Shown here: positions 17,920 through 29,240 of the stretch, piece by piece
Numbering within the stretch: position 1 is the first letter of the stretch
Layout of the letters: each line of letters starts with the position of its first letter
Assembly (NCBI GenBank): GCA_019084245.1
Contig: JAHRFE010000005.1
Coordinates: forward strand, 62,001 to 126,000
Direction: 5' to 3'
From: Hoeflea sp.
GTDB taxonomy: Bacteria; Pseudomonadota; Alphaproteobacteria; Rhizobiales; Rhizobiaceae
Length of the DNA stretch: 64,000 bases
Made by a program: the position numbers and the translations under genes
Notes under the pieces: generated by a model
Told to the model about the DNA's origin: nothing
Database searches by the model: none
What the model saw: the letters and a program-made list of their open reading frames with translations, nothing else

Positions 17920-18088
17920 GGCGATGTATATTCCGGTCTCCACCAGATGGTGGTCATGACATGGACAAAAAAAGCCCTTATCACTGAGAGGACTGATGTC
18001 TGGATTTACATCCAAGCATCGCAAACAAGCCGATTTAAGGCAGAAGACAGGCCGGAAGCAAGCTCCGGCACACAGGAGGAGGCGTAAC

Positions 18089-27738: not shown

Positions 27739-27937
27739 GTGGCGATTCTCTCGTTCGGGAGCCAGCGATTCTTTGGCCGCGGGCCTTGGCGCAAGAGTAC
27801 ACCAATCTGCAGGCGCCGGACAATGACAGGATAAAGAGCACTCTGCCCTCAAATATTACAGCCTTGCACAGCTTTGAGGCATATATCCGTGAAATCCCCC
27901 TTAGCCATGCAAATACGGAATAGCTTCCATGAAAATA

Positions 27938-27972
27938 TTGCACTGCACAAATCGATTGAATGCCCCTATATT
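27938..27972 (+). promoter_or_regulatory. Promoter of DUF1127 gene 1
   Basis: TTGCACTGCACAA (27938-27950) contains a CTGCAC -35 box, followed by 17 bases and CTATAT (27966-27971). This matches the rhizobial housekeeping pattern CTTGAC-N17-CTATAT in spacing and -10. The same arrangement occurs before DUF1127 genes 2 and 3. The start codon is about 60 bases downstream. Confidence 0.75.
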
Positions 27973-28031: not shown

Positions 28032-28172
28032 ATGAAACTGATCCGCTCCTACGCCAGCTGGCGGAAGTACCGCGAAACCTGCGTCGAGCTCAACAGGCTT
28101 TCGGAACGCGAGTTGAGCGACATCGGCATGTCACGGGGCGATATTCCCTTCGCCGCACGGCGCGCCTTGTAA
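28032..28172 (+). CDS. DUF1127 small protein 1
   Basis: The 46-residue basic protein consists of a single DUF1127 helix-turn-helix-like motif, with the family signature RLSERELSDIGMSRGDIPFAARR at residues 22-44. AAGGAGATAGACC lies ahead of ATG 28032. DUF1127 proteins of this short class bind RNA and alter phosphate or carbon metabolism where studied (for example CcaF1 in Rhodobacter and similar Agrobacterium proteins). This copy is directly followed by a CCUCCUCCC-type hairpin RNA, as in the Rhodobacter ccaF1-CcsR locus. Confidence 0.92.
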   Translation: MKLIRSYASWRKYRETCVELNRLSERELSDIGMSRGDIPFAARRAL

Positions 28173-28313
28173 GAGTTTTACGAATTCGGAGCGGCCTCCT
28201 CCTCCTCCCATAAAGCCGCTTCGATGTGACTGGTGTTCATCCTCCTCCCGAGCATCAGTCTCCCAAAATGGCGCCCACCGGATCCTCCTCCCCCGGTGGG
28301 CGTTATTTGTTTT
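28173..28313 (+). ncRNA. Cuckoo/CcsR-type small RNA with three CCUCCUCCC loops
   Basis: Three consecutive hairpins follow the DUF1127-1 stop, each presenting CCTCCTCCC in its loop. Hairpin 1 has stem 28187-28195/28215-28223 and motif 28201-28209. Hairpin 2 has stem 28228-28235/28253-28260 (one G-U) and motif 28241-28249. Hairpin 3 has stem 28272-28281/28293-28302 and motif 28284-28292, followed by TTATTTGTTTT as a terminator. Alphaproteobacterial cuckoo RNAs (CcsR in Rhodobacter) have exactly this motif in loops and sit behind DUF1127 genes. The motif mimics the anti-Shine-Dalgarno sequence. The RNA is probably cut from the DUF1127 transcript, so the 5' end is not known. Confidence 0.85.
28272..28313 (+). 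terminator. Terminator hairpin of the DUF1127-1/cuckoo RNA transcript
   Basis: CGCCCACCGG pairs perfectly with CCGGTGGGCG, and TTATTTGTTTT follows on the plus strand. It doubles as the third CCUCCUCCC hairpin. Confidence 0.88.
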
Positions 28314-28488
28314 GGCAGCCTGTCCTGCCCGCGCGCCTGGCCGCGCACCGCGCTTCACCCCTTCGCTTCAAGACTTTGCCTCTGTTCGCCAGATCGCGGC
28401 AAAGACGTGGCGAGACTGAATCTTAATCTTTGTTAACAAGGTTTTGTTAAGGCGGATTGCAGAAACCGCATGGCACCTTTGCATTATT

Positions 28489-28523
28489 TTGCACTGCACA
28501 AATCGGACGGTCGCTCCTATATC
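28489..28523 (+). promoter_or_regulatory. Promoter of DUF1127 gene 2
   Basis: The 13-base block TTGCACTGCACAA (28489-28501) is identical to that of gene 1, with CTGCAC as -35, a 17-base spacer and CTATAT (28517-28522). The spacer also shares AATCG with gene 1 and GGACGG with gene 3. The start codon is about 55 bases downstream. Confidence 0.75.
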
Positions 28524-28576: not shown

Positions 28577-28720
28577 ATGAACTTCCGCAAGGCCTACAAA
28601 GACTGGCGCGACTATCGCAACACCGTCAACGAACTGTCCCGCATGTCTGAACGCGAACTCAACGACCTCGGCATCTCCCGCGGCGATATCCCCTTCGTCG
28701 CTCGCCGTCCGGGCAACTAA
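28577..28720 (+). CDS. DUF1127 small protein 2
   Basis: The 47-residue protein (MNFRKAYKDWRDYRNTVNEL then RMSERELNDLGISRGDIPFVARR) is a close paralogue of gene 1. It has its own promoter and its own terminator, so it is a separate transcription unit, and no CCUCC-loop RNA follows it. The ribosome site is CGAAAGGACCAAGACC. Confidence 0.92.
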   Translation: MNFRKAYKDWRDYRNTVNELSRMSERELNDLGISRGDIPFVARRPGN

Positions 28721-28763
28721 GCTTACAAAAATACTGCCCGGTTTTGGCCGGTCAATCCAAACG

Positions 28764-28794
28764 GCGCCCTGGAGACAGGGCGCTGTTTCTGTTT
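28764..28794 (+). terminator. Terminator of DUF1127 gene 2
   Basis: GCGCCCTG and CAGGGCGC form an 8-bp stem closed by a GAGA tetraloop and followed by TGTTTCTGTTT. Confidence 0.85.
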
Positions 28795-28936: not shown

Positions 28937-28971
28937 TTGCTCTGCACAATTGGACGGCAATCGCCTATATG
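28937..28971 (+). promoter_or_regulatory. Promoter of DUF1127 gene 3
   Basis: TTGCTCTGCACAA (28937-28949; one base different from genes 1 and 2) gives a CTGCAC -35, a 17-base spacer and CTATAT (28965-28970). The start codon is about 68 bases downstream. Confidence 0.75.
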
Positions 28972-29039: not shown

Positions 29040-29186
29040 ATGAACATTCTTAGCAGAGCACGCAGCTGGATGAAAACCCGCCAGACCGCACAGGAACTCG
29101 CCAACCTGTCCAACGAGACCCTCGCCGACATCGGCCTGACCCGTTTCGACATCGACAACGTGGCACGCGGCATTCGCACCCGCTAA
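29040..29186 (+). CDS. DUF1127 small protein 3
   Basis: The 48-residue protein (MNILSRARSWMKTRQTAQEL then NLSNETLADIGLTRFDIDNVARG) is the most divergent of the three paralogues; the SERE core is SNET and the C-terminal arm lacks RGDIPF. Start ATG 29040 follows GAGGAGACCGCC; an in-frame extension to 28950 overlaps the promoter and is rejected. It is a separate unit with its own promoter and terminator. Confidence 0.9.
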   Translation: MNILSRARSWMKTRQTAQELANLSNETLADIGLTRFDIDNVARGIRTR

Positions 29187-29210: not shown

Positions 29211-29240
29211 ACGGCGTCCCTTGGGACGCCGTTTTCGTTT
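29211..29240 (+). terminator. Terminator of DUF1127 gene 3
   Basis: ACGGCGTCCC (29211-29220) pairs with GGGACGCCGT (29223-29232) over a tight TT turn (in practice a slightly larger loop) and is followed by TTTCGTTT. Confidence 0.85.

Follow-up and report, generated by a model that had tools for sequence, protein, structure and literature searches.

An αr14 (RF02344) small RNA directly behind a DUF1127 gene in Hoeflea sp., and the promoter box upstream of the pair

The stretch of Hoeflea sp. DNA that was analysed (64 kb; hereafter the window) carries three DUF1127 genes in a row on the forward strand, ahead of trmFO (GIDA domain, E 5e-100). These are DUF1127-1 (28032-28172; 46 aa; PF06568, E 1.3e-14), DUF1127-2 (28577-28720; 47 aa) and DUF1127-3 (29040-29186; 48 aa). 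An αr14 sRNA (28181-28308, forward strand) lies behind DUF1127-1 only; DUF1127-2 and DUF1127-3 end in plain terminator-like hairpins, at 28759-28788 and 29211-29232 respectively, and no CCTCCTCCC motif follows either gene. The whole genome gave seven DUF1127 matches, and no CCTCCTCCC was found at the loci of the four that are outside the window. In locus L158 (approximately 1340-1720; G000:C32) another DUF1127-like frame is flanked on both sides by a short direct repeat, GTGAAGGGCGCGCGGAGAC, as judged by eye, and a similar sequence, GAAGGGCGCGC, is present ahead of DUF1127-3 in the window.

Folding of the segment between 28173 and 28313 predicted three successive hairpins with CCUCCUCCC present in each loop. 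Hairpin 1 (28186-28224) has a stem of 10 bp (28186-28195/28215-28224) and hairpin 2 (28228-28260) one of 11 bp (28228-28238/28250-28260). Hairpin 3 has a stem of 16 bp (28266-28281/28293-28308) and, with the T-rich tail that follows it, forms an intrinsic terminator (28266-28313). It was missing from the output of a simple terminator scan because that scan accepts loops of 3-8 bases only. The 13 bases between the DUF1127 stop codon and hairpin 1 (28173-28185) are an A/U-rich linker, unpaired in the predicted fold, which is a putative processing region. The first-pass annotation had placed a structured RNA of the CCUCCUCCC type directly 3′ of the DUF1127 gene, with a third stem that doubles as a terminator, and both points agreed with the fold; its three stems were also recovered, but with the lengths given above and not the 9, 8 and 10 bp it had proposed.

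The nine-base motif CCTCCTCCC occurs on the forward strand at 28201-28209, 28241-28249 and 28284-28292, and no further copy was found on either strand of the 64-kb window. The count alone is a weak signal, as dinucleotide shuffles of the window averaged 0.82 copies and 6 of 100 reached at least three. The stronger signal is that the three copies fall inside 92 bases, every one of them in a hairpin loop: when the motifs were held fixed and the remainder was shuffled, none of 500 sequences placed all three in hairpin loops. The minimum free energy of 28173-28313 was -59.8 kcal/mol; shuffled sequences averaged -34.2 (z -7.36), and none of 200 came as low. The motif had been equated with the anti-Shine-Dalgarno sequence of 16S rRNA; the 16S tail reads CCUCCUUUCU, so that the two share CCUCCU alone and are not equal. 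A search of the draft genome with a 16S 3′-end pattern gave no matches.

Comparison with covariance models showed that the segment belongs to the known αr14 family (RF02344) and is a relative of NfeR1 of Sinorhizobium meliloti. The RF02344 model aligned over its full length (positions 1-123 of 123) with 97.3 bits, against a curated cut-off of 58.8. PMC10746234 and the review PMC7143759 describe αr14 RNAs as three hairpins, each with an identical CCUCCUCCC anti-Shine-Dalgarno motif, whose stems differ strongly. The same features were found here: CCUCCUCCC is unpaired in each of three hairpins, and the loops are constant while the stems vary yet stay paired. As three CCUCCUCCC hairpins are the published description of αr14, three loops are the canonical αr14/NfeR1 form and no variant.

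The first-pass annotation had read the three loops as a variant of the cuckoo/CcsR RNAs and had suggested a check with a covariance model of that family. The loop motif and the position behind a DUF1127 gene are indeed identical in the two kinds of RNA, and the CcsR1 model (RF02791) did match the segment, at 26.8 bits (E 0.00048 in a search of 1451 bases). This score, however, falls far short of 65.3, the cut-off for CcsR1, whereas the αr14 score is far above its own; the alignment spans hairpins 2 and 3 only, since the CcsR1 model has two loops, and three hairpins were predicted here instead of a two-hairpin unit. With three loops being the described αr14 form, a three-loop variant of CcsR1 is very improbable. 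CcsR1 was accordingly rejected as a family name, as was αr7 (RF02342), which matched the same stretch at 28.9 bits, far under its cut-off of 60. The question of αr14 versus cuckoo is in part one of naming, because αr14 and CcsR are both grouped under cuckoo RNAs in the literature, going by reference titles and one passage. For the window, the name is thereby settled: it holds a described sRNA family instead of a new form.

Across a sample of 199 genomes of the order, 63 had an RF02344 match at E <= 0.001 and 29 had one over the cut-off; for 61 relatives (own genome included) the numbers were 45 and 36, and none of 14 named control genomes had a match. Within the genus, 17 of 18 genomes (own included) passed the cut-off; G205, which is 77% complete, did not. 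An alignment of 33 sequences from a wider range showed 39.7% of cells paired, which was not above its own shuffles, as MAFFT failed to align the variable stems across genera and the structure columns were misplaced. A genus alignment (16 units, 37 pairs), which is free of ambiguity and made of close relatives, was used instead. All 592 of its 592 cells form standard pairs and four pairs changed on both sides; slid controls gave 0 or 1 double-changed pairs and 34.6-56.0% of cells paired. The stems are therefore kept in the covariation check that had been proposed for them, and the covariation is modest but consistent, modest because 29 of the 37 pairs never vary.

A scan that is independent of the family model, for three exact motifs spaced 20-50 in genome contigs, gave at least 120 loci. 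The 80 with titles are mostly Hyphomicrobiales or Rhodobacterales; at least four (L009, L053, L054 and L080) belong to other phyla by title and are probably chance repeats, and a few further chance matches may sit in L083-L122. After removal of these four, and of units with a short flank or a motif number other than three, 119 of 137 units (112 loci, among the matches listed) folded with all three motifs in loops, compared to 0 of 2740 shuffles. Rhodobacterales loci often had more loops, in chains of up to 12 among the matches listed. Seven loci (L012, L019, L049, L060, L081, L097 and L103) are chained arrays of 8 to 12 CCTCCTCCC motifs; the first five are Rhodobacterales or Rhodobacteraceae by title, and loop number is far more variable there.

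Of the 17 genus loci examined, 16 have a DUF1127 gene 26-31 bases upstream of the first motif. The seventeenth (L183) is the second unit of genome G207, in which a DUF1127 gene lies, by coordinates, 10 bases ahead of another αr14. Across all of the at least 120 loci listed, chance matches included, 45 of 125 clusters had a DUF1127-like frame no more than 400 bases upstream, and among the same loci 27 units had one within 60 bases. Outside the genus, this gene pair is seen, by title, in species of Phyllobacterium, Martelella, Mesorhizobium, Oricola, Labrenzia and Brucella. A short DUF1127 gene beside a CcsR-like sRNA has been published for the CIN1 locus (PMC10253847), and here too the DUF1127 gene adjoins an CCUCCUCCC hairpin RNA, ending at 28172 with the first motif starting at 28201.

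Upstream of DUF1127-1 lies a box, TTGCACTGCACAA (27938-27950, forward strand), which all 16 DUF1127-1 promoters examined in the genus carry with no more than one mismatch. A likely -10 element, CTATAT (27966-27971), starts 28 bases past the box start, and the spacing is equal at DUF1127-2 (box 28489-28501, CTATAT 28517-28522, as read in the sequence) and at DUF1127-3 (box with one mismatch 28937-28949, CTATAT 28965-28970). All three genes of the window are thus preceded by TTGC(A/T)CTGCACAA. The upstream part of the DUF1127-1 promoter region, CCATGCAAATACGGAATAGCTTCCATG (27905-27931, forward strand), is largely kept across the genus. Counting boxes with at most two mismatches within 200 bases upstream, for which shuffles give 0.05-0.15 per group, revealed one ahead of 46 of 46 short DUF1127 genes of the genus (16/16 DUF1127-1 and 30/30 others). 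Elsewhere, in named loci, it was found at 4 of the 22 DUF1127 genes that have αr14 no more than 60 bases behind them, at 13 of the 36 remaining DUF1127 genes and at 9 of the 75 αr14 units that stand alone. As only 4 of the 22 named pairs have the box, the promoter part is valid for the genus and not for all DUF1127-αr14 pairs. A crude consensus scan, which picks up one of the three DUF1127 promoters, gave a single forward-strand sigma-70-like site between 27850 and 29300, at 27944-27972 ahead of DUF1127-1, and none between 27973 and 28186. No box was found between 27973 and 28185, where the best match has 6 mismatches.

The spelling of the promoter region and the gene order of the genome suggest which regulator may act here. 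In the literature, VtlR of Brucella is an activator of three DUF1127 genes and of AbcR2, with the reported motif CAATGCAGCCATGCA; the box by which LsrB activates NfeR1 is TGCA-N6-GCAT / T-N11-A; and the trxB-vtlR gene order is conserved in the class (PMC7486931). By eye, CCATGCAAATACGGAATAGCTTCCATG resembles the Brucella VtlR motif. The box ahead of DUF1127-1, on the other hand, differs from the TGCA-N6-GCAT spelling of the LsrB site, which occurs six times in the window with only one occurrence (28458-28471) near a DUF1127 gene. A LysR-type gene is located directly behind trxB in this genome (L159, 2506-3405); among the 25 of 55 NCBIfam matches listed for its protein, no model was over the cut-off. 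The box may be a VtlR/LsrB site, given synteny and spellings that agree in part.

A second αr14-like RNA is encoded on the reverse strand of the same genome (G000:C21:112061-112206; L002 and L251) and scored 38.2 bits, under the cut-off. Two loops carry CCTCCTCCC, the terminator hairpin lacks the motif, and the copy stands alone behind a TTGCAATGCAGCAT box. Matches like this two-loop copy were present in 16 of 18 genus genomes. None of the 16 genus copies has the box at two or fewer mismatches; at 3 mismatches it was found at 15 of 16, against 0.35 in shuffles.

As for targets, the nine-base motif pairs fully with GGGAGGAGG. The first-pass annotation had named phaC as a perfect match. There is a site, AGGAGGAGG, at 18074-18082 ahead of a start codon of the phaC frame (PhaC_N, E 2.2e-76), and it can pair over nine bases only with loop 1, which is longer and contains CCTCCTCCT; with loops 2 and 3 the pairing is of eight bases. 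Genome-wide, GGAGGAGG-N4-10-ATG occurs at 21 sites (1 for the reversed pattern) and GGGAGGAGG-N3-10-ATG at four (0 reversed). By eye, the four GGGAGGAGG frames are ABC permease-like, TRAP-type binding protein-like, FAD monooxygenase-like and a frame of 10 codons. Since it is one among 21 such sites, phaC is not singled out and was rejected as a special target, while its pairing is possible on sequence. Complementary candidate sites thus exist in the genome, where strong Shine-Dalgarno sites are expected anyway; as patterns, the counts indicate strong Shine-Dalgarno sites and not regulation. Published work on NfeR1 describes silencing of ntrBC at its translation initiation region via the anti-Shine-Dalgarno motifs.

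Given the family, structure, conservation, gene order and shared box observed above, we think it probable that the αr14 sRNA is co-transcribed with DUF1127-1, is freed by processing and silences mRNAs with strong Shine-Dalgarno sites. One transcript would run from approximately 27978, driven by the promoter at about 27905-27971, through DUF1127-1 and αr14 and end at the terminator near 28313. In the linker after the stop codon of DUF1127-1 the transcript is probably cut by an endonuclease, for example RNase E, and each loop of the freed αr14 would then offer CCUCCUCCC to the Shine-Dalgarno region of a target mRNA and reduce its translation; the three loops would be largely interchangeable. The putative regulator is a LysR protein of the VtlR/LsrB type. 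Published precedents are ccaF1-CcsR for the shared transcript and its processing and NfeR1-ntrBC for the silencing.

Two other accounts of how the RNA arises or acts were weighed against co-transcription. A promoter of its own inside the 3′ part of DUF1127-1, which would make αr14 independent of the DUF1127 mRNA, is conceivable because NfeR1 has its own sigma-70 promoter (review PMC7143759) and because stand-alone αr14 genes exist here, the two-loop copy of this genome among them; moreover, 80 of 125 three-motif clusters (motif test; at least 120 loci, chance matches included) have no DUF1127 gene within 400 nt upstream. The DUF1127-to-αr14 distance, however, is nearly fixed in the genus, and the interval between DUF1127-1 promoter and RNA yielded neither a sigma-70-like site by the crude scan nor a box with fewer than 6 mismatches, which makes an internal promoter unlikely. 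That the segment is a mere terminator region of DUF1127-1 with no function in trans is more improbable by far, and the least credible account of all. Hairpin 3 would by itself be a good terminator, but DUF1127-2 and DUF1127-3 make do with simple terminator-like hairpins that lack the motif, and the three loops persist among αr14 units while the stems change with compensation.

The trmFO locus was compared between genomes. Of 74 rows reaching trmFO, 48 were kept, 25 same-genome repeats and one locus cut at the edge (L005) having been dropped. The first αr14 cluster follows the box and then a DUF1127 gene in 29 of the 48 loci (15 of which are the window and its genus), whereas in 11 the box leads straight to αr14 with no DUF1127 gene. 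Another seven have DUF1127 ahead of αr14 without a box of two or fewer mismatches, and one has no αr14 cluster. Named examples with the box alone come from Endobacterium, Shinella, Sinorhizobium and Rhizobium wenxiniae (L023, L028, L035 and L063). In two loci from Sinorhizobium (L031 and L035) the box, -10 element and leader of the window are retained (local alignment scores of 89 and 73, the latter against 26 for the best of 300 shuffles), and their αr14 lies within 153-154 bases of the box, leaving no room for a DUF1127 gene. The αr14 of L035 (Sinorhizobium sp. 6-70) starts with GAATTCGGAGC just as in the window, and DUF1127 is absent between the leader and αr14. Eight further loci (L125, L126, L128, L024, L052, L067, L099 and L115) have the order box, DUF1127, DUF1127, two or three tandem αr14 units and trmFO.

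We tentatively propose, while holding it somewhat doubtful, that one VtlR/LsrB-type LysR protein drives DUF1127 and αr14 from a single promoter, and that the DUF1127 frame at trmFO was lost or inserted in the history of the Rhizobiaceae, such that the 3′-UTR sRNA and the stand-alone sRNA gene would be two states of one element. If true, this would join NfeR1 under LsrB, DUF1127 under VtlR and the DUF1127-CcsR co-transcripts, published stories that we found meeting only in pairs, and would be a clear case of interconversion between an sRNA derived from an mRNA and one with a free-standing gene. In the open-licence PMC literature, no paper treating NfeR1 and DUF1127 together was found. The remaining interest of the locus is in this shared promoter and the two states at trmFO.

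Among the closest known systems is αr14/NfeR1, with which the window shares the full-length model match, the three CCUCCUCCC hairpins and a third hairpin that is the terminator; the promoter box type is also common to some stand-alone αr14 genes. It differs in that NfeR1 has its own LsrB-activated promoter, whereas the RNA of the window lies directly behind a DUF1127 frame and no promoter of its own was seen. The likeness to αr7 is a weak match on this stretch that does not reach its cut-off. With CcsR1-4/ccaF1 of Rhodobacter sphaeroides (RF02791) the window shares the placing of CCUCCUCCC hairpin RNAs after a DUF1127 gene. As published, ccaF1 and CcsR1-4 form one transcript that is cut by RNase E, a processing that is only probable here. 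CcsR1 also follows a two-hairpin model, unlike the window RNA, and its operon has an RpoHI/RpoHII promoter, whereas the window has the CTATAT -10 element and the conserved upstream box. In the VtlR/LsrB regulon (Brucella, Agrobacterium and Sinorhizobium) a single LysR regulator controls both small DUF1127 genes and sRNAs, and a trxB-linked LysR gene is present in this genome; the difference is that DUF1127 and the sRNA would here use one transcript, under putative regulation by the trxB-linked LysR protein.
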